In this document: in pieces, positions 5,957 to 34,548 of the stretch
How positions within the stretch are numbered: the first letter of the stretch is position 1
Layout of the letters: the number at the start of each line of letters is the position of its first letter
Assembly (NCBI GenBank): GCA_947488685.1
Contig: CANLAH010000004.1
Coordinates: 1 to 35,439 of the forward strand
Origin: Acidimicrobiaceae bacterium
GTDB taxonomy: Bacteria; Actinomycetota; Acidimicrobiia; Acidimicrobiales; Ilumatobacteraceae
DNA: 35,439 nt
Direction: 5' to 3'
Notes under the pieces: model-generated
The model's database searches: none
Told to the model about the DNA's origin: nothing
Seen by the model: the letters and a program-made list of their open reading frames with translations, nothing else
Position numbers and translations under genes: made by a program

Positions 5957-7720
5957 ATGACGGACGGGACATCAGATAGCGGCGCTCAGAGTCCGGCTCC
6001 ACAAGACGCCCTCGAGATAACGCAATTACAACTTGAAATAGTTGAACTTCGAAATAGGTTGGCCGAACTGCCCAAGCGCACACAAACAATCGAAACACGC
6101 TTGCTAGAAACCAAAGGACGACTCAGTCAGACCGAAGCTCATAATGAAAAATTGACGCTTTCGTTGAAAGAGACTCGCAGTCAAGTTGCATCCCTTCGAG
6201 AAGAGGTCGACAAATTGTCACAGCCTCCCTCGGCCTATGGCGTTGTACTCGGACTCAATGACGACAACACCATTGACGTTCTTACGAGCGGTCGCAAGAT
6301 GAGAGTGAATTGCACACCGGAAATAGATAGAGAAGAATTGGTGCGCGGCGCAGAAGTTGTGCTCAATGAGAGTCTTAATATCGTCGTTGCTCGGCGCCCC
6401 GAAAGCACTGGAGAGGTAGTGACTCTTAAAGAGATTCTCCAAGACGGAGTACGCGCCATTATCAGCGGTCGCGCCGATGAAGAACGAGTCTGTGAGCTTG
6501 CCGATTCGCTACGTGGCGTGTATTTAAGAGTCGGAGACCAATTGCGACTTGATTCGCGAACAAATCTTCTTTTAGAGCGCCTTCCACAGCCAGAAGTTGA
6601 CAATTTATTGTTAGAAGAAGTTCCCGATATTACTTATGCGGATATCGGTGGTCTAGATGAGCAAATCGAGCAAATCGCTGACGCAGTGGAACTACCGTTT
6701 CTTCATCGTGATTTATTTGCTGAGCACCTGCTGCCAGCACCAAAAGGAATACTTCTTTATGGACCACCCGGATGTGGCAAGACACTGATCGCTAAGGCTG
6801 TTGCTAATAGCTTGGCAAAAAAAGTAGCGGCAAACAACGGAGATGAAAAAGGCCGCTCGTACTTTATAAATATCAAAGGGCCAGAGCTTTTAAATAAATA
6901 TGTCGGCGAAACTGAACGACAGATCCGATTGGTTTTTCAGAGGGCGCGCGAGAAAAGCGAAGAAGGCTGGCCAGTCATAATATTCTTTGATGAGATGGAC
7001 TCGATGTTTCGCACACGCGGTAGCGGCATCTCATCCGATATGGAGTCGACGATAGTTCCACAATTGCTCGCAGAGATTGACGGAGTTGAGGGCCTTCGCA
7101 ACGTCATCGTCATTGGAGCAACTAATCGAGAAGACCTCATTGACCCTGCAATATTGCGGCCGGGAAGACTTGACGTCAAAATCAAGATCGAGAGGCCAAC
7201 TGCTGTTGCAGCACATCAGATTTTTGCACGCTATCTGACCACTGATCTACCCCTCAATGAAGAAGAAGTTCTTAGCATCGGAGGCGGGGACAGAGAAGTC
7301 GCGGTGACGCGAATGATCGAGAGCAGTGTTGCTGAGATGTACAGACAGGACGCAGATAATAAGTTTCTTGAGGTCACGTATCAAAATGGCGATAAAGAAG
7401 TTCTGTACTTCAAAGATTTTTCCAGTGGCGCAATGATCGAGAACATCGTTCGTCGGTCAAAGAAACTTGCAATCAAGCGCGTGATCGCTGGTGGTGCAAA
7501 AGGAATCACCACTCAAGATCTTGTCCTCAGCGTTCGACAGGAGTTTGTCGAACATCATGATCTGCCCAACACGACCAACCCTGATGACTGGGCTCGGATT
7601 TCTGGGAAGAAAGGGGAGCGCATTGTCTTTATTCGAACACTTGTGACTCCTGCAAGTGACTCTGACACCACAGAAGGTGTGCGCGCAATTGAGCCTGCCG
7701 CTACGGGTCAATACCTGTAA
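5957..7720 (+). CDS. mpa: Proteasome-associated AAA+ ATPase (Mpa/ARC)
   Basis: The hexameric unfoldase that captures pupylated proteins and feeds them into the 20S proteasome. The N-terminal coiled coil (about residues 18-92), which binds Pup, is followed by OB-fold domains (about 95-245) and one AAA+ module. Walker A is GPPGCGKT and Walker B is IIFFDEMD, with ATNRED and RPGRLD further on. The C-terminus ends ATGQYL, the conserved penultimate-Tyr docking motif for the proteasome alpha ring. At 587 residues it matches family size. It is the first gene of the Pup-proteasome cluster, and dop begins 4 bp after its stop. Confidence 0.97.
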
Positions 7721-7724
7721 CGAC

Positions 7725-9242
7725 ATGGCGATCTTAAAAGTTTGTGGGATCGAGACAGAATACGGGATCGTCACCAGGGGTTTTGATGTGTCTCCGGTTA
7801 CATCGTCATCGATGTTGATTAATGCCTACGCAGGTTCGATGAGACAAAAAATCGGTTGGGACTTTTTGGACGAACATCCATCCGTTGACGCGCGCGGAAC
7901 CGTGACGGAAACGTCCTTCCCCCCAGAGATTGAGACGCACCTCGTAAATGCCGTTCTCACAAACGGTGCTCGGTACTACGTCGATCATGCTCATCCCGAA
8001 GTGTCAACGCCCGAGTGCCTGACGCCACGCGATGTTGTTCTGTACGACCGCGCCGCTGAGGAAATCATACTTCGCAGCATTGCTTCGGTTAATGCGCTTC
8101 TTCCGGATGGACAAGAGATCGGAACCTTTAAAAACAACTCGGATGGAAAAGGCAATAGTTACGGATGTCATGAGAACTATTTAGTTTCCAGAGAACTTGC
8201 CTTTGGACGTCTGGCTTCTCACATCACCACTCATTTCGTGACACGCCAAATCTATTGCGGAGCAGGAAAAGTAGGAAGCGAAAATGGCGCACCAGATGTG
8301 CCCTTTCAAATATCTCAACGTGCTGATTTCTTCGAGGAAGAAGTTGGACTCGAAACCACTGTTAAACGTCCGATCGTAAATACAAGGGATGAACCCCATT
8401 GTGATCCTTTGAAGTATCGACGGCTTCATGTCATTGTTGGCGATGCGAATATGAGCGAAGTCGCTACATTTTTGAAAGTCGGCACAACTGCACTGATTCT
8501 CGCCATGATTGAAGATGATCAGTTTCCGGACTGGCTCACTCTTCGTCACCCTGTGGCACATATTCGGTCTGTGAGTCACGATATTTCCCTGACGTCAACC
8601 TGTGAACTTCAAGACGGTCGCACGATGTCTGCTCTCGAGATCCAGGAACAATTGCTGGGTCTGTGCCAACGCTATGTACACAGGTATGGCGACCCCACGT
8701 CTGGTGATGCAGACGAAATTTTGCGTGAATGGGAGTCAGTTCTTGATTGTCTCAAAAACAATCCGGAGGACGCTGCTGATCGCGTCGACTGGATCGCTAA
8801 ACGGCGAGTCCTCGAAGGATTTGCTCTTCGTCACGGAGTCTCGCCACTGAGTGCCCAATTACGTGCGATTGATTTGCAGTACCACGACATGCGACTGGAT
8901 AAATGTCTCGCTCTTCGAGTGGGTCTGCGAACTCTCGTCAGCATCGAAGACGTTCACCGTGCGGTGACGAATCCGCCACCGGACACACGGGCGTATTTTC
9001 GGGGAACGTGCTTAGCCCGTTGGCCTCAAAATATTGTCGCCGCAAATTGGGACAGCATTGTTATTGATACTGGAGATGAGATTCTGAGGCGGATTCCGAT
9101 GATGGAGCCGCTGAAGGGGACTCGTGCGATTGTGGGTGAACTCTTGACTGCTGTCAACTCCGTGGAAGATCTTCTCTTGAGTTTGGGCTCGGCTGATACA
9201 CCAGGCTGGGATCCGCTCATGACGCCTGAACCCGGGTGGTAA
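7725..9242 (+). CDS. dop: Deamidase/depupylase of Pup (Dop)
   Basis: Dop converts the C-terminal Gln of Pup to Glu before ligation and also removes Pup from substrates. It belongs to the carboxylate-amine ligase/glutamine-synthetase-like fold shared with PafA. Visible motifs are the N-terminal [10 protein letters not shown] (catalytic Glu strand), [18 protein letters not shown] (catalytic Asp region) and [17 protein letters not shown]. Between residues about 30 and 60 ([24 protein letters not shown]) lies the Dop-specific loop that PafA lacks. The start is ATG 7725, 4 bp after the mpa stop; the ORF-track start at 7656 lies inside mpa. The product is 505 residues, normal length. Confidence 0.96.
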
Positions 9243-9291
9243 TTCGGGCTGGCGATGGCAAGACGTGTTGGCGGTGGCTACGGTTGAGGGT

Positions 9292-9489
9292 ATGGCAGAT
9301 CGGATTCGCAAAACCACCCCTCAGACAGAATCTCAAAACGCACCGGCAAGTGCCGACATGGATGTTTCGACTGCGAGCGGTCAACGTCTCAAAGCAGAAC
9401 TTGATGACTTGCTGGATGAGATCGACGAGGTTCTCGAAACTAACGCAGAAGACTTTGTCAACAATTACGTTCAAAAGGGTGGGCAGTAG
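9292..9489 (+). CDS. pup: Prokaryotic ubiquitin-like protein Pup
   Basis: The small protein tag for proteasomal degradation. The C-terminal half ([32 protein letters not shown]) carries the Mpa-binding helix and ends in GGQ, so Dop deamidation is needed before PafA can use it. I chose ATG 9292 (MADRIRKTT), which gives 65 residues, the usual Pup size, with GAGGG just upstream. The ORF-track start at 9265 adds nine residues without support. It sits between dop and prcB as in other actinobacteria. Confidence 0.95.
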
Positions 9490-9506
9490 CTTTTCTGCAA
9501 TTCTTT

Positions 9507-10289
9507 ATGTCAATGCCTTACTTCACGCCTAGCCAAGATCCGGGCGCAAATTTTCAAGAACTCTTGTCGCGCGTTGGGCTCGTCCCTCGAAACGTGCAAG
9601 GTCACTCAATTGTTGACATTCCGCATGCAACAACCTGTGTTGCAGTGACATATCAAGACGGTGTCGTCATGGCCGGAGATCGACGTGCAACCGCTGGCAA
9701 CCTCATTAGTCATCGTGATATGGAAAAAGTTGTCAAGGCCGACACGTATAGCGGCGTCGGAATAGCGGGTGCAGCGGGTCCGGCGATGGAGATGATCAAG
9801 TTGTTTCAATTGCAGCTCGAACACTACGAAAAAATGGAAGGCCAGCAGCTCTCCCTTGAAGGTAAAGCAAACCAACTCTCAACAATGGTGCGTGCAAACT
9901 TGCCGTCTGCGATGCAAGGCCTAGGAGTAGTTCCTATTTTTGGGGGCTTCGAACCCCGTCAGTCAAAAGGACGTCTGTGGGACTACGACATGACTGGTGG
10001 ACGATACGAGGAGCGTGAGTTTGTCGCCATTGGTTCTGGCAGTTTGCACGCCGGAACTGTCATCAAGATTGGTTGGCGCGCCCAGATGACCAAGAGCGAT
10101 GCAGTGTCGCTCGTCTGTCGAGCCCTCTGGGAAGCAGCAGATGCGGATAGCGCCACTGGAGGACCAGATGTGATGCGTGGGATTTATCCGATTGTGGCGG
10201 CTATCTCTCAAGACGGTTGGGTGCCAGTTCCAGACGACGAACTCGCACAAGTGTTTGAGTCAATTATCGCGCAAGTGAGATCACGATGA
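9507..10289 (+). CDS. prcB: 20S proteasome beta subunit PrcB
   Basis: The catalytic beta subunit of the 20S core. A propeptide of 41 residues ends DIPHA and is followed by TTCVAVTYQDGVVMAGDRRAT. Thr42 should therefore become the N-terminal nucleophile after self-cleavage, and GDRR contains the conserved Asp. LEHYEKMEGQQLSLEGKAN and MVRANLPSAMQGL match actinobacterial PrcB closely. The 260-residue length is typical. The stop overlaps the prcA start by 4 bp (ATGA), suggesting translational coupling that would help equal subunit supply. Confidence 0.96.
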   Translation: MSMPYFTPSQDPGANFQELLSRVGLVPRNVQGHSIVDIPHATTCVAVTYQDGVVMAGDRRATAGNLISHRDMEKVVKADTYSGVGIAGAAGPAMEMIKLFQLQLEHYEKMEGQQLSLEGKANQLSTMVRANLPSAMQGLGVVPIFGGFEPRQSKGRLWDYDMTGGRYEEREFVAIGSGSLHAGTVIKIGWRAQMTKSDAVSLVCRALWEAADADSATGGPDVMRGIYPIVAAISQDGWVPVPDDELAQVFESIIAQVRSR

Positions 10290-10963
10290 CGATGCCGTTT
10301 TACGTTCCTCCAGAACAACAGATGAAAGATCGAGCAGAATTTGCTCGAAAGGGAATCTCACGCGGACGCTCACTGGTGGCATGCCAATATCAAGACGGCA
10401 TTCTGTTTGTTGCAGAGAATTTAAGTAATACTCTTCGCAAGATTTCAGAAATCTACGACCGTATAGCGTTTGCAGGAGTCGGTAAATACAACGAATTCGA
10501 TCAACTACGCCAGGCGGGTGTACGCGCAGCCGACTTAAAGGGTTATCAGTACGCCCGTGACGACGTCGATGCGCGCAGTCTCGCTAATCAATATGCCCAG
10601 ATGATGGGACACATCTTTACTCATGACCAAAAACCGCTTGAAGTCGAGATTCTTGTGGCAGAAATCGGTTATGACGCTTCTCAGGATCGACTGTTTCATA
10701 TCTTGTACGACGGAACAGTCATGGACGAAAGCAGATTCTCTGTACTCGGGGGAGATGCAGACCCAATTAGTGAGCGCATGAATACGTCATTTACCGTCGG
10801 GGCAACTTTGTCCGCCGCCCTCAAAGCGTGTGCGCAGTCCTTGAGTGGCCCCGATAAAACACTGGCAGCAGTTGATCTTGAAGTAGCGGTAATTGAGCGT
10901 GGGAACAATCGTCGCTGTTTTCGACGGATCGAGGCGATCGAAGCCACGTCGTTGATGGGGTGA
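10286..10963 (+). CDS. prcA: 20S proteasome alpha subunit PrcA
   Basis: The structural alpha-ring subunit that gates the 20S core and receives the QYL tail of Mpa. The N-terminus [30 protein letters not shown] corresponds to the gate peptide and first helix. There is no N-terminal Thr nucleophile, as expected for alpha. The start overlaps prcB (ATG at 10286); a second in-frame ATG at 10292 is equally possible. At 225 residues it is slightly shorter than the mycobacterial protein because its C-terminal tail is short. Confidence 0.95.
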
Positions 10964-10970
10964 CGTTTTA

Positions 10971-12329
10971 ATGGACCGTCGGATTTTTGGTCTCGAAAAC
11001 GAATACGGCATCACGTGTACCTTGCGTGGTCAACGGCGCTTAACTCCAGATGAGGTAGCACGTTACCTATTTCGAAAAGTAGTGTCGTGGGGCCGTAGCT
11101 CCAATGTCTTTTTGGAGAACGGTGCTCGTTTGTATCTTGATGTTGGATCCCATCCTGAATACGCAACACCTGAATGTGACTCTATCTACGACGTTGTTGT
11201 TCACGATAAGGCCGGAGAGCGCTTGTTGCAAGATCTGGTGCACACCGCAGAAGAGCGACTTCAAGACGAAGGCATACGAGGGACGATCTATTTATTCAAA
11301 AACAACACCGACTCTGCGGGCAATAGCTACGGATGCCATGAGAATTATCTCGTTCATCGCACAGAAGCAAGTCTGAGATACGACGATATTTTCATTCCGT
11401 TTCTAGTCAGCCGTCAGATTTTTACGGGGGCTGGGAAGGTGCAGATTTCTCCACGCGGAGCTTCCTATACGATTTCTCAACGAGCGGAACATATTTGGGA
11501 AAGTGTGTCGTCAGCGACAACACGTTCGCGGCCCATCATTAATACTCGAGATGAACCACACTCAGATGCAGAACTATATAGACGTCTCCATGTCATTGTT
11601 GGCGATTCAAACATGAGTGAATACACAACATTTGTCAAGCTAGGAAGCGCTGCGTGTGTATTGCGAATGATGGAAGACGATTCAGTCAGCCTGCGAGACA
11701 TGACTCTTGAGAATCCCATCCGTGCGATACGCGAGATTAGTTCTGATACGACATGTCGCAGAACAGTCCGCCTCGAGAGTGGGCGAGAAGTAAGCGCCCT
11801 TGACATTCAACGTGAATACCTGAATGCAGCGTTGCGATACGCCGAAACAACTGGATTCTCTGACATGGAAACAAAGGCCCTTGAGATGTGGGAACACTGT
11901 ATTTCCACTATTGAAAATGACCCTCTCAAACTTGACAGAGAAGTTGATTGGGTCATTAAGTTGAAATTGATTGAAGCCTTCAGAGCGCGGCATAACTTGT
12001 CACTCGATGATGCAAGGGTGCAACTGTTAGACCTGCAGTACCACGACATTGACATTCAACGCGGCGTGTTTTACAAGATGCAAAATAATGGACTTGTCGA
12101 ACGAGTCTGCAGTGATGATGACATTATGCGAGCTATGAATGAAGCCCCTACTGGTACTCGTGCACACTTACGAGGCTCATTCATCAAGGCGGCAAAACTT
12201 AAGAAACGCGACTACACCGTTGACTGGGTTCATCTCAAACTCAACGATCAACAGCAACGCACTGTTCTATGCAAGGACCCATTTGCATCAGTTGACGAGA
12301 GAGTAGAGCGACTAATCGCCGGTTTATAG
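10971..12329 (+). CDS. pafA: Pup-protein ligase PafA
   Basis: PafA uses ATP to join the C-terminal Glu of Pup to substrate lysines. Conserved motifs are [17 protein letters not shown] (catalytic Glu strand), [19 protein letters not shown] (the Asp that activates the lysine) and [17 protein letters not shown]. The Dop loop is absent, which separates it from the dop paralogue in this window. At 452 residues it has the family length. It follows prcA by 7 bp and is probably in the same operon. In Mycobacterium pafB and pafC follow; here a signal peptidase follows instead. Confidence 0.96.
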
Positions 12330-19345: not shown

Positions 19346-20941
19346 GTGACCGTCTACGTTCCTGAAGAATTTACAGAGTCCGAGCAACAGATTCTGTGTC
19401 GTTATTTCACGAACCTAGACCTACCCGTTTTTGCTCTTGTCAACCTTCCAGAGGTTGTCAAGGGAGCGTTGTTCGCGCGCTACAGCCGTAGTCCACGAAG
19501 TCTACGAAGATTATTTTTGGATGAGTTTGTCGGTGATCTGGACATTAGTGGAGACCAAAACGTCGATGCCACGATCGGACTTGAACGGGCCGAAGGATTG
19601 TATGAAAAAGTATTTTTTGAATACGGAGACGACTCGGTAGCCCAACTAGGTGGCGTGCATTTGGCGTGCGAACAAGCGTCAAATATTTTAACGAAAATCC
19701 TTGAGTGGGGCCGTCTTATGAGTTATCTCGAGCAGAGTACTCGTTACATTTCATATGACGAAAGACTCGGTGGTAGATATCGTTTTTTTCGAGATCCAGA
19801 AATCTTGGCGAGCAAGCTTGCTAATCGATATGTGGGTGACATGGATCGAATGTTCGATTCGTATAGCGCGTTAGCCAACACTGTCACCGAACATGTTCGT
19901 CAATCTGTTCGCCAAGCCGATGGCGTCAGTGATTTTGTATTTCGCCAAGCGACTCGTGCTAAAGCCCTTGACGCAGTGCGCGGTGCATTGCCTGCGGCCT
20001 CATTGTCGAATGTCGGCATCTACGGAAGTGGACAGGCCTATGAACATTTGCTTCTTCGGATGCGAGCACATCCATTGCCAGAGGCTCGCCACTATGCCGA
20101 TCTGATGTTGGGGGAGTTACGCAAAGTAGTTCCGAGTTTTTTGAAGCGTGTCGACATCCCGGAGCGTGGCGGAGAATGGTCTCAATATATTTCAGATACC
20201 CATGAAGACACTGCTGTATTGGTTGATGAACTTTTTAGCGATCAAATTGCGGATGACTCCGACGAAGTCACACTTGTGGATTTTGATCCTGATGGCGAAA
20301 ACAAAGTCATTGCCGCGATCTGCTATTCACAATCCCACCTTCCGGAGTCACAGATTCTTGCCCTCATTGACGCAATGTCAGCCCAAGACAAGACCTCGCT
20401 TTTGCTGGCTTATGTGGGTGACCGCAAGAACAGACGGCACCGACCCGGTCGAGCATTTGAGCGCACCGATTACCGATTTGATATTTTGTCCGACTACGGG
20501 GCGTTTCGAGATATGCAACGGCACCGAATGCTGACAATTGAGTGGCAGCCACTCACCCCGTATCACGGCTTCACGCGTCCTGAGTTGCTCGTTGAGGCAG
20601 GGTGTGGCGATCAGTTTGATGAGGTCATGGAGCGCTCTAGGGGGCTCTACGAGGCCTTAGGGGATGACTTTAGGCAACAGGCGCCTTATGCGGTCTCAAT
20701 GGCCTACAGGATGCGCTATGTCATGCAATTCAATGCCAGGGAAGCCATGCACATGCTCGAATTGCGGTCGTCTCCTCAGGGGCACCCGTCGTATCGGCGA
20801 GTCTCTCTCGAAATGCATCAACAGATCGCTCGCGTCGCGGGACACACGGCTATTGCCGCAGCGATGATCCACATGACAACTGAAGCACCTGAACTTGAGC
20901 GTCTTGACTCTGAGCGTCGAGCAGAGCAGCGCCGTTCGTAG
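19346..20941 (+). CDS. Double-domain ThyX-like (FAD-dependent thymidylate synthase-like) protein
   Basis: Two ThyX-like modules in one 531-residue chain. The N-terminal module has LEWGRLMSYLEQSTRYISYDE, matching the second half of the ThyX motif (SxNExSxRY) but without the RH before it. The C-terminal module has DMQRHRMLTIEWQPLTPYHGF, with RHR but not the Ser/Asn/Glu part. Ordinary ThyX is about 220-260 residues and has one complete RHRxxSxNExSxRY. Proteins like this are often annotated as thymidylate synthase, but activity is doubtful from the motifs. The GTG start at 19346 has an upstream TAGGCT. No classical thyA or thyX is in the window. Confidence 0.75.
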   Translation: MTVYVPEEFTESEQQILCRYFTNLDLPVFALVNLPEVVKGALFARYSRSPRSLRRLFLDEFVGDLDISGDQNVDATIGLERAEGLYEKVFFEYGDDSVAQLGGVHLACEQASNILTKILEWGRLMSYLEQSTRYISYDERLGGRYRFFRDPEILASKLANRYVGDMDRMFDSYSALANTVTEHVRQSVRQADGVSDFVFRQATRAKALDAVRGALPAASLSNVGIYGSGQAYEHLLLRMRAHPLPEARHYADLMLGELRKVVPSFLKRVDIPERGGEWSQYISDTHEDTAVLVDELFSDQIADDSDEVTLVDFDPDGENKVIAAICYSQSHLPESQILALIDAMSAQDKTSLLLAYVGDRKNRRHRPGRAFERTDYRFDILSDYGAFRDMQRHRMLTIEWQPLTPYHGFTRPELLVEAGCGDQFDEVMERSRGLYEALGDDFRQQAPYAVSMAYRMRYVMQFNAREAMHMLELRSSPQGHPSYRRVSLEMHQQIARVAGHTAIAAAMIHMTTEAPELERLDSERRAEQRRS

Positions 20942-29734: not shown

Positions 29735-29930
29735 TGCTATAACCCGTTTGGGAGAGCATCATTACACAGCCAGTGCAATGATCGCCGAAGGAGCAACCAC
29801 CCCGGAACCTCTCAGGCCCAAGGACCGAACGGACTGGCAACGCTGGAAAGAAGGGACTCGTCCCTCGCCGACGGGGAAAGCCCTCACGGGTGAAGCTCTC
29901 AGGCACAAAAGACAGCGGGGGTGCACATAG
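29735..29930 (+). ncRNA. Tandem glycine riboswitch upstream of gcvP
   Basis: Two adjacent glycine aptamers. Aptamer 1 begins GGGAGAG (29750), has CGCCGAAGGAGCAA and GGAACCTCTCAGGCCCAAGGACCG, and ends near 29830. Aptamer 2 (about 29842-29924) has GGGACTCGTCCCTCGCC, GACGGGGAAAGCCC and GAAGCTCTCAGGCACAAAAGACAG. These are the conserved cores of the gcvT-type riboswitch. The gcvP ribosome binding site AAGGAG (29939-29944) follows by about 15 nt, so control could be on translation or by nearby termination. In known cases glycine turns expression on. The RNA lies in frame with the ORF-track start at 29890, which is therefore a false start. Confidence 0.95.
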
Positions 29931-29952
29931 TTCTCTATTAAGGAGCCGCACC

Positions 29953-32376
29953 ATGCCACATGTTTTTGACCGCGAACAATTTCTTGATCGCCACCTTGGT
30001 TTGTCGTCAGACGACCGGGCCGAAATGCTCAGAGTTATCGAGCGAGATTCGATCGATGATCTGCTGAGCGCAACTATCCCCGAGCAGATTCGCCTGCGTG
30101 CATCGTTAGCCCTTGGCTCAGCAGTGCCAGAAGCAGAAGTTCTCAGCATGTTGCGAGACAAGTTCAACAACGATGTCGTGCGACGTAACTACATCGGTCA
30201 GGGCTATTACGGAACAATTACACCGCCGGTGATCAAGCGAAATGTTCTGGAAAACCCGGCCTGGTATACCGCGTACACGCCATATCAACCAGAGATTAGC
30301 CAGGGCCGACTTGAAGCGATTCTGAACTTTCAAACAATGATTGCCGAACTCACTGGACTTGCACTTGCTAATGCGTCATTACTTGACGAAGCAACCGCTG
30401 TAGCCGAGGCCGTAACGATGGCACGTCGCGTGAGCAAGAACCCTTCGAACATTGTCCTGGTCGAAAAAGATATTCACCCCCAGACTCTTAATGTTTTACG
30501 AACCCGCACCGAACCTGTGGGTATTGAAATTATTCTCGGTGGACTCGACGACTTTACTGACGTGGATGCCTTTGCATTAGTTGTCTCCTGGCCTGCAAGT
30601 TCTGGAGCCTTAGCTTCACCACAAAGTGTTGCAGCCTCTGTCGCTCACCATCGTTCTCGTGGGGTCATCACTATTGCAAGCACCGACCTGTTGGCGTGCG
30701 CCCAGATTATTCCACCGGGACAACTTGGCTTTGATGTTGCAGTTGGCTCGGCACAGCGGTTCGGAGTTCCGATGGGTTTTGGTGGACCTCACGCCGCATT
30801 TATGGCAGTCGCCACAGAACATGCACGATCGTTGCCAGGCCGCCTTGTCGGAGTCAGCACCGACACTGCTGGTCGTCCAGCACTGCGATTGAGTCTGCAG
30901 ACACGCGAACAACATATTCGACGCGAAAAAGCCACATCAAACATATGCACAGCGCAGGTGCTGCTCGCCAATATCGCTGGCTTCTACGGAGCATGGCATG
31001 GTCCAACTGGGCTACAAGCAATTGCTCGTCGCGTGCATGCATTGGCGTCTGCATTTGCGTCTTTGGCTGCCAGTAAAAACTTGAGTCTCGTGTCAACTGA
31101 TTTCTTTGACACCGTTGCATTACAAACACCTGATGCACAAGGCTTGGTGTCACAAGCCAGGCAGCACGGTTGCAACATCCGACAAATCGACGAACGAACA
31201 GTTTCAGCGAGTTTTGACGAAACAATGACCGCACAAGATGTCGTCACACTGCTACTTGCGATTGGCGTCAACGCCACGCTTCAAGATGTCAACAACAGCG
31301 CCAGGGCCGATCAGAACGCGTCTCTTGTACGTACAGATCAATTCATGTCTCAGAGCGTTTTTGGGAGATACCACACCGAACACGAAATGCTTCGATATGT
31401 CCGCCGTCTCTCAGATAAAGACTTGGCACTTGATCGAACAATGATTCCACTTGGTTCTTGCACAATGAAACTCAACTCCACCACAGAGATGGAACCGATC
31501 ACATGGTCTCTTTTGGCCGATCTGCACCCGTATGTACCAGCAGATGAAAGCGTTGGCTATCGCTCTTTGATTACAGATCTCGAAACAATGTTGTGTGCCA
31601 TTACTGGCTACGACGCAGTCAGCCTTCAACCTAATGCGGGTAGTCAAGGCGAGTTTGCCGGCCTTCTAGCAATCCGTGCGTACCACCGTTCGCGTGGCGA
31701 CATCAATCGCACGATCTGTCTTATTCCGTCAAGCGCTCACGGCACGAATGCCGCAAGCGCAGTCATGGCAGGAATGGGCGTCGTCGTTATTGCCTGCGAC
31801 GAAAGCGGCAATGTTGATGTGCAAGACCTGCGTGAAAAAGCAGACGCAGCCGGAGAACGTCTTGCGGCGTTAATGGTGACATACCCATCGACTCACGGTG
31901 TTTTTGAAACTGCCATCAGTGAGATCTGTGAGATTATTCATCAACGCGGTGGTCAGGTGTATGTAGACGGTGCAAATCTCAATGCTCTCGTTGCAGTCGC
32001 TCAGCCGGGCAAATTCGGCGCCGATGTCAGTCACCTCAACTTGCATAAAACTTTTTGTATTCCTCATGGCGGTGGTGGCCCAGGAGTTGGCCCTGTTGCG
32101 GTGAGATCTCATCTTGCACCGTTCCTGCCAGGGCACCCACTCGCTCACCATGACGACTCCACTGTTGGGGCCGTGTCAGCAGCGCCCTTTGGCTCAGCGG
32201 GCATCTTGGCTATTCCATGGGTGTATATCTCAATGATGGGACCGGACGGGCTATTGGCGGCAACTGGAGACGCCATACTCTCGGCCAATTATGTCGCACG
32301 TCGATTGGTGTTTTTGAAACTGCCATCAGTGAGATCTGTGAGATTATTCATCAACGCGGTGGTCAGGTGTATGTAG
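29953..32376 (+). CDS. gcvP: Glycine dehydrogenase (decarboxylating), GcvP - 5' part, frame broken by duplication
   Basis: P-protein of the glycine cleavage system; it decarboxylates glycine with PLP and loads the aminomethyl group onto Gcv[27 protein letters not shown] is the normal N-terminus, with AAGGAG 8 nt before ATG 29953. [50 protein letters not shown] and [18 protein letters not shown] (Schiff-base Lys) match GcvP. After ...YVARRL the frame enters the second copy of a 410-bp tandem repeat out of register and stops 22 codons later, giving about 807 residues. Without one copy the gene would encode 958 residues, the standard length. Confidence 0.93.
31897..32306 (+). repeat. 410-bp tandem duplication inside gcvP, copy 1
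   Basis: First copy of a direct repeat, beginning GGTGTTTTTGAAACTGCC and running to the junction at 32306/32307. It covers the PLP-lysine segment of GcvP. 410 is not a multiple of 3, so two copies break the frame. Confidence 0.95.
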
Positions 32377-33239
32377 ACGGTGCAAATCTCAATGCTCTCG
32401 TCGCAGTCGCTCAGCCGGGCAAATTCGGCGCGGATGTCAGTCACCTCAACTTGCATAAAACTTTTTGCATTCCTCATGGCGGTGGCGGCCCAGGAGTTGG
32501 CCCTGTTGCGGTGAGATCTCATCTTGCACCGTTCCTGCCAGGACACCCACTCGCTCACCATGACGACTCCACTGTTGGGGCCGTGTCAGCAGCGCCCTTT
32601 GGCTCAGCGGGCATCTTGGCTATTCCATGGGTGTATATCTCAATGATGGGACCGGACGGGCTATTGGCTGCCACTGGAGACGCCATACTCTCGGCCAATT
32701 ACGTCGCCCGTCGACTGCGCGACGTATACCCCACTCTTTACTCTGGACCATCAGGCACAGTTGCCCATGAGTGCATCCTTGATATTCGGGGGATCACTAA
32801 AGACACTGGAGTGAGTGTTGACGACATCGCCAAGCGATTAATGGACTTTTGTTTCCATGCACCCACAATGAGTTTCCCTGTGACCGGAACACTGATGGTT
32901 GAGCCAACCGAGAGTGAATCCTTGGCCGAAGTCAATCGTTTCATTGAAGCAATGCTTCAGATCGGTGTCGAGATTGATTCAGTGCGCCAAGGCAAGGTTG
33001 ACATTGAAGACTCTCCATTGAGACATGCACCTCACACCGTTGAAGATGTTGTCTCAAGCAACTGGGCTCGGCCCTACTCTCGCGAGACAGCCTTGTTTCC
33101 AACACCACTCCTGCGAACACGCTCGTTTTACCCAGCCGTGTCACGCATCGATGCTGTATTTGGAGACAGGAACCTAGTCTGCAACTGCGCACCAATCGAG
33201 GAGTACGCGATGTCGTTAGAGAGTATTACTCTGTCGTAA
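32217..33239 (+). pseudogene. gcvP: gcvP - 3' part after the duplication
   Basis: The frame that carries the rest of GcvP. Its first 30 codons from ATG 32217 are out-of-frame reading of copy 1; true GcvP sequence starts at 32307 ([13 protein letters not shown]). It runs through [24 protein letters not shown] and [33 protein letters not shown] to the stop. This holds the GcvP C-terminal domain, which is missing from the 5' product. It is unlikely to be translated on its own, since no ribosome binding site precedes 32217. If the duplication is an assembly error, this and the 29953 entry are one intact gene. Confidence 0.85.
32307..32716 (+). repeat. 410-bp tandem duplication inside gcvP, copy 2
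   Basis: Second copy, offset exactly 410 bp from the first. About ten base differences separate the copies, all synonymous in the gcvP frame, and half of them cluster in the last 60 bp. The two copies encode the same peptide, GVFETAISE...YVARRL. Confidence 0.95.
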
Positions 33240-33492: not shown

Positions 33493-34548
33493 CTATTTCT
33501 TTTTGGCAACAAAAGGCAGTGCGGTGATGACGCCCTCTATCAGCGAGCCGCGTACATCTAGATCTACTTTTTGACCTACTGATACTTCAATCGTCACGAA
33601 CGCCATCGCTATGCAATGACCAAGCGTTGGAGAAAAGTTACCGCTCGATACGTATCCGATTGACTTGCCTTCAGAGAGAACTTCTGTGCCATCGCGTGCC
33701 GGACGTCGACCTTGTATTTCGATACCTACAAGTCTCTTTGACAAACCTGACTCTTTTTTGGCCAATAGTGCATCACGTCCGCGAAAAGCACCCTTATCCC
33801 ATGACACGACCCATTCAAGACCCGCCTCAAGAGAGTTGATCCCTTTGCCTAGTTCGTGCCCATGCAGCGGAAGACCTGCCTCAAGGCGCAAAGTATCGCG
33901 AGCACCTAGTCCCGCAGGCACTCCACCGGCCTGCACGAGTGCGTTCCAGATGGAGGTTGCGTGCGCAACCGGCACTGCAAGTTCAAGACCGTCTTCGCCC
34001 GTGTAGCCAGTTCCGGCGACGGTGCAGGCCACGCCCATGAGTTCTAGCTCTTTGACGCGAAACCGACCAACATCTGCTGCATCACGAGAGAACGCACCAA
34101 CAACTTTTCGCGCCGTTGGCCCTTGCACGGCAATGATTGCCCGTGTATTTGTGGTGTCAACTCCGCCAATTGCTTCTTGCACGCCAGTTGTATTAGAGGC
34201 ATTAGGCATGACATCAAACACGTCATCACCTACCCACCACACAATGATGTCATCCAATACGCAAGCATCGTTTACGTCGAGCAAGTGCGTGTACTGCGCG
34301 CGACCAACAGAGATCTTATTTAGATCATTTGTCAGTGCTTTTTGCAATAGGTCAAACGCCTTGTCACCAGACACTCGAACTGTGCCCAAGTGCGACACAT
34401 CAAATAGCGCCGCACCTTGACGACACGCTTCGTGCTCTAACAGCGTTCCGCTCGGATATGAAATTGGCATTTCCCATCCACCGAACGGAGCCATCTTGGC
34501 CTTCAGTTCTCGGTGCACCGCATCTAGCGGAGAAACTTTGTCACTCAT
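33493..34548 (-). CDS. gcvT: Aminomethyltransferase GcvT (glycine cleavage T-protein)
   Basis: Transfers the methylene group from aminomethyl-GcvH to tetrahydrofolate, releasing ammonia. SPLDAVHRELKAKMAPFGGWEMPISYPSGTLLEHEACRQGAALFDVSHLGTVRVSG is the typical N-terminus. GYTGEDGLELAV and GLGARDTLRLEAGLPLHGHEL are folate-site and core motifs. The length (351 residues) is normal. It is on the opposite strand to gcvP and has no riboswitch of its own in this window. ATG 34548 lies 2 bp after the ftsR stop; TAACTT 6 nt upstream (34555-34560) could be a separate leaderless promoter. Confidence 0.93.
   Translation of the reverse strand: MSDKVSPLDAVHRELKAKMAPFGGWEMPISYPSGTLLEHEACRQGAALFDVSHLGTVRVSGDKAFDLLQKALTNDLNKISVGRAQYTHLLDVNDACVLDDIIVWWVGDDVFDVMPNASNTTGVQEAIGGVDTTNTRAIIAVQGPTARKVVGAFSRDAADVGRFRVKELELMGVACTVAGTGYTGEDGLELAVPVAHATSIWNALVQAGGVPAGLGARDTLRLEAGLPLHGHELGKGINSLEAGLEWVVSWDKGAFRGRDALLAKKESGLSKRLVGIEIQGRRPARDGTEVLSEGKSIGYVSSGNFSPTLGHCIAMAFVTIEVSVGQKVDLDVRGSLIEGVITALPFVAKKK

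Follow-up and report, generated by a model that had tools for sequence, protein, structure and literature searches.

The window, that is, the whole stretch of 35,439 nucleotides analysed here, carries a gene encoding two Thy1 (ThyX-family) domains on one chain, which we refer to as a double ThyX (Table 1). The open reading frame begins with a GTG codon and remains open for just one codon further upstream. A search of Pfam-A with the protein returned PF02511 (Thy1) as the sole match, with both halves above the 24.8-bit cut-off and an E-value of 4.8e-36 for the whole protein; the PF00303 (ThyA) domain was absent. The protein also matches TIGR02170, the equivalog model of single-domain ThyX, but falls below its cut-off (50.1 versus 87.9 bits). 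The motif region of the N-terminal half is ILEWGRLMSYLEQSTRY (aa 118-134) and that of the C-terminal half, which contains the RHR, is RDMQRHRMLTIEWQ. The canonical signature RHRxxSxNExSxRY is found on no single segment of the chain, its ExSxRY and RHR parts lying in different domains. Elsewhere in the window, a pupylation/proteasome cluster at 5957-12329 encodes a proteasomal ATPase of the Mpa/ARC type and two Pup-ligase family proteins. The glycine cleavage P-protein (29890-33239) is split over two overlapping reading frames, 29890-32376 and 32217-33239, which could reflect either a frameshift in the gene or an error in the sequence. GcvT is encoded at 33493-34548 on the opposite strand.

Table 1. 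Coordinates of the double ThyX gene, its domains and its active-site residues in the window (residue equivalents are those of T. maritima ThyX)
Feature	Position	Strand	Details
Double-length ThyX gene	19346..20941	+	531 aa; encodes two Thy1 domains in a single polypeptide
N-terminal Thy1 domain (dUMP-side half), aa 80-264	19583..20137	+	PF02511 58.3 bits, profile 36-191; hhalign to canonical ThyX, probability 97
EQSTRY, aa 129-134 (E86, S88, R90, Y91)	19730..19747	+	52/52 N-halves; absent in C-halves
R212 (R147, dUMP site)	19979..19981	+	52/52 N-halves; mostly P/Q/S/A in C-halves
C-terminal Thy1 domain (FAD-side half), aa 310-498	20273..20839	+	PF02511 65.1 bits, profile 2-189; hhalign probability 98.6
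RHR, aa 392-394 (R78, H79, R80)	20519..20527	+	52/52 C-halves; H79 in 0/52 N-halves
NAR, aa 463-465 (N163, A164, R165; FAD contacts)	20732..20740	+	Core-set C-halves: R165 48/48, N163 46/48
R474 (catalytic R174)	20765..20767	+	52/52 C-halves; role of R174 from PMC8316439

To place the known active-site residues on the two halves, profiles of each half, built from a core set of 48 diverse doubles, were aligned to a canonical ThyX profile that included the T. maritima (residues 55-197), M. tuberculosis and PBCV-1 sequences. Conservation was scored over the window protein and 51 relatives with 23-79% identity to it, a set that spans Actinomycetota, jumbo phages, and Bacillus and Paenibacillus plasmids. 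The N-half of the window protein supplies E86, S88, R90, Y91 and R147 as E129, S131, R133, Y134 and R212; H79 is replaced by G122, R78 by W121, and N163 and R165 by Ser and Gln, and R123 aligns with the second Arg of the RHR. The C-half supplies R78, H79, R80, N163, R165 and R174 as R392, H393, R394, N463, R465 and R474, lacks the S88-Y91 segment and has Pro in place of R147. The main catalytic residues R78, S88, R90, Y91 and R174 are all found on the polypeptide, as R392, S131, R133, Y134 and R474, and are invariant among the 52 sequences. The ExSxRY set is kept in none of the 52 C-halves, and most core-set N-halves have S/T and Q at the N163 and R165 positions. The partition is incomplete, since R78 is retained in 17 and R80 in all of the 48 core N-halves, and the R174 column of the N-halves is mostly basic. 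Some canonical positions deviate in the window protein; among them, Q75 is D389, N85 is L128, and H53 is conserved in neither half. In most further viral doubles, a motif scan found both motifs, again in this order; a few doubles were not recovered by the scan. Direct alignment of the N-half with the C-half gave almost no signal (probability 6), as expected if the halves have lost opposite residues.

An earlier note on this DNA had described a ThyX-like fusion with a split signature motif, and the two Thy1 domains and the identical partition in 52/52 sequences bear this out; being the same in every sequence of a diverse set, the partition is not due to chance. Both motifs that the note had cited are present as quoted, LMSYLEQSTRYISY in the first half and QRHRMLTIEWQ in the second. 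Its statement that the first half keeps only SxxExSxRY and the second only RHR holds in that the N-half has no RHR and the C-half no ExSxRY, but is too narrow: the N-half also retains R123 and the R147 equivalent, and the C-half the NAR and the R174 equivalent. Decay of a pseudogene in a single genome was ruled out, the reading frame being intact and conserved throughout the order.

Canonical ThyX is a homotetramer, and its R147 contacts dUMP on the same side as S88. According to a structure review (PMC6514825), a single active site draws on three subunits: A contributes the RHR and R199 (R174), B contributes R190 (R165), and C holds S105, R107 and Y108 (S88, R90 and Y91) together with dUMP; subunit B also provides the FAD contact Ser71 (T55 in T. 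maritima). PBCV-1 ThyX agrees, with Q75 and R182 on one monomer and S88 and Q89 on the other (PMC3498832), and in T. maritima R174 activates dUMP and mutants in S88, R90 and Y91 slow the dUMP reaction (PMC8316439). If A and B are taken as C-halves and C as an N-half of the double, all the listed RHR/R174, R165 and S88/R90/Y91 residues are kept. The other two sites of a tetramer would need the FAD side from N-halves and the dUMP side from C-halves, where these residues are lost. An exception to this rule is the subunit-B contact Ser71/T55, which is R369 in the C-half and S97 in the N-half. Because the losses otherwise fall along the division between subunits in the known active site, there is strong support for the proposal of complementation between two half-sites.

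With one pair of composite sites kept and the other lost, a dimer of fused chains should form a pseudo-tetramer, and two complete and two dead composite sites would be the simplest reading of the conserved sequences. We think it highly likely that the protein is a flavin-dependent thymidylate synthase in which two ThyX domains, fused and asymmetrically degenerated, act as a pseudo-222 tetramer with two live sites. The C-half would form the FAD-holding side of each site through its RHR and NAR, and would contribute R474 as the dUMP-activating Arg, and the N-half would form the dUMP-holding and lid side through E129, S131, R133, Y134 and R212. Two chains would assemble with pseudo-222 symmetry, each complete site being composed of one N-half and two C-halves, and FAD would accept the methylene from CH2-THF and pass it to dUMP, as in ordinary ThyX.

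A structure prediction of the monomer, which the earlier note had proposed as a check, gave an AlphaFold2 model (38 sequences; mean pLDDT 86, pTM 0.85) with the ThyX fold and the same strand-helix-strand core in both halves. The best 50 PDB matches to the model are all ThyX-family chains (E 4e-5 to 2e-4; TM by target 0.54-0.71) and include the UMP/dUMP methylase PolB (4p5a/4p5b). A direct search of the PDB with the window protein sequence returned nothing relevant, and a profile of 16 relatives reached ThyX chains at E 0.01-1 only, with the C-half only. That the monomer is modelled with confidence would also suit a working thymidylate synthase whose sites are completed only within one chain, as a pseudo-dimer, or with an added partner protein, and the oligomer of the fusion may differ from the homotetramer of canonical ThyX. 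We regard such an arrangement as unlikely, however, and the conserved R165 equivalent of the C-half fits a second C-half from the other chain completing the FAD pocket, as the pseudo-tetramer would have it.

To assess the role of the double ThyX, we surveyed the thymidylate synthase genes of related genomes. The double is found in 32/32 high-quality genomes of the window's order, ThyA in 0/61 genomes of the order, and no separate canonical ThyX was found there; one genome (G019) has a weak third Thy1 match. Thymidine kinase is present in 8 of the 32 high-quality genomes, leaving 24 without it. The earlier note had asked whether the genome has a normal thyA or thyX; PF00303 has no match anywhere in the window's own genome, and neither ThyA nor a separate canonical ThyX was found in the order as a whole. 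Among 148 genomes of the class, 114 have the double, 13 a ThyA match and 133 some Thy1 match. When only the 118 high-quality genomes are considered, 100 have the double, 8 a single ThyX and 10 ThyA only, so that none is left without a thymidylate synthase; the eight with a single Thy1 constitute the 1-Mb genus g52, with frames of about 220 aa. The double and ThyA occur together in only 2 of the 114 class genomes, the ThyA being full in G165 and split in G069; in G121 the ThyA match is weak and partial. Across the phylum sample, a full ThyA was found in 2/131 genomes with the double versus 69/266 without it, a comparison for which Fisher tests ignore shared ancestry.

We also detected a second double ThyX gene in the window's assembly, on the 3.1-kb contig C184. 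This copy is 98% identical to the gene of a genome from another genus in the family (G036), which led us to reject the idea of two paralogues in one genome; the contig is probably mis-binned.

The absence of the full RHRxxSxNExSxRY motif from either half would be expected of a pseudoenzyme, with both sites dead, a regulatory or structural role and dTMP obtained from another source. We consider this very improbable: the catalytic residues are precisely the invariant ones, each in one half, and in the order neither ThyA nor a separate canonical ThyX was found and thymidine kinase is mostly absent. The suggestion that the protein had become a pseudoenzyme with a new role is not supported, given the presence of the gene in all 32 good genomes of the order and its class-wide alternation with ThyA or a single ThyX. 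Since another thymidylate synthase gene hardly ever accompanies it in its class, the double very probably functions as an enzyme whose active sites are shared, and is not a dead remnant. Judged from the sequences and the gene census, it is most likely the cell's thymidylate synthase and would serve as the sole one of its genomes. The caution that calling it a thymidylate synthase would be unsafe appears too strong in the light of this genomic inference.

By fold and domain the double is a member of the ThyX family (PF02511, TIGR02170; T. maritima TM0449, M. tuberculosis ThyX and PBCV-1 ThyX), although it fails the single-chain motif and the equivalog cut-off. Like canonical ThyX it has the FAD-side RHR/NAR/R174 set and the dUMP-side ExSxRY/R147 set, and probably an active site shared between subunits. 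It differs in carrying these two residue sets on separate domains of a single chain, in an expected half as many sites per ThyX domain, in changes at the Q75 and N85 positions and in the loss of H53. ThyA (PF00303) performs the same cellular task and alternates with the double between genomes, but is unrelated in fold and mechanism. RefSeq/PGAP entries named FAD-dependent thymidylate synthase, of about 530 aa, share the double architecture and owe their name to homology; those of Euzebya (WP_164711104), Miltoncostaea (WP_217924789) and Parabacteroides (WP_009276148) are 45-46% identical over 92-99% of the window protein. PHROG 36506, a phage family of double length (491 positions), is likewise named thymidylate synthase. 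We found no report of a fused or double ThyX, of the split motif or of its activity in the literature searched.

ThyX-fold relatives with other substrates exist, as PolB among the PDB matches illustrates. Together with the changed Q75 and N85 positions and the many deep-branching doubles that are viral, this raises the question of whether the double is a flavin-dependent enzyme that methylates or hydroxymethylates pyrimidines but whose main substrate or product is a different one, for example a PolB-like UMP/dUMP methylase or an enzyme for a hypermodified phage base. For the cellular protein we find this quite improbable, since the only recognised thymidylate synthase in most genomes of the class has to produce dTMP at the least; some phage doubles may be enzymes of this kind.

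The double ThyX resembles a natural subunit-complementation experiment, in which the FAD-side and the dUMP-side residues have come to lie on different domains in the course of evolution. Which residues belong to which subunit, and whether all four ThyX sites are needed, thereby become directly testable questions. Most sampled genomes of the class, many others in the phylum and a number of jumbo phages seem to depend for thymidylate synthesis on this uncharacterised enzyme, which annotation by motif would class as dead.

Doubles are also present in other actinobacterial classes and on records of Parabacteroides, Euzebya, Miltoncostaea and 200-kb Bacillus/Paenibacillus plasmids, as well as in jumbo phages of Tunturiibacter and Vibrio and on many large viral contigs. 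The double of the Tunturiibacter jumbo phage adjoins a dCMP deaminase gene and is near a dUTPase gene, and that of Euzebya is near a dCTP deaminase gene. In an unrooted tree with long branches, the cellular doubles cluster in one shallow group, next to several viral lineages that are much deeper; this fits a phage origin of the doubles, but such a tree fits either direction of transfer. One tentative scenario, which we consider possible but rather doubtful, starts with a duplication followed by complementary decay, which gave rise to an obligately asymmetric thymidylate synthase with two live and two dead composite sites per four ThyX domains. This enzyme would have diversified for the most part in jumbo phages and then moved from them into cells, displacing ThyA and ordinary ThyX as the sole thymidylate synthase of large actinobacterial lineages.

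Several individual records deserve mention. In Parabacteroides distasonis (NZ_OY725790.1, a 277-kb record termed a plasmid that has housekeeping-like genes), the double lies four genes before dihydrofolate reductase (DHFR) and shares 45% identity with the actinobacterial protein, which suggests that the gene has crossed between phyla. A single-contig genome of 2,158,157 bases (G074) has a strongly diverged double on a long branch, 41% identical to that of the window, which retains the split residue set. Within genus g172, three genomes (G276, G462 and G483) have the double and no ThyA match, and a fourth (G457) shows the reverse, ThyA without a match to the double, which may reflect a recent natural replacement. 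Finally, in many genomes of the phylum sample (families f60, f71, f73, f77 and others) the ThyA matches are all weak and partial (about 32-47 bits, covering roughly positions 110-226 of the profile), mostly in frames of 220-330 aa and some running past a stop codon, which possibly represent a divergent ThyA-like family.
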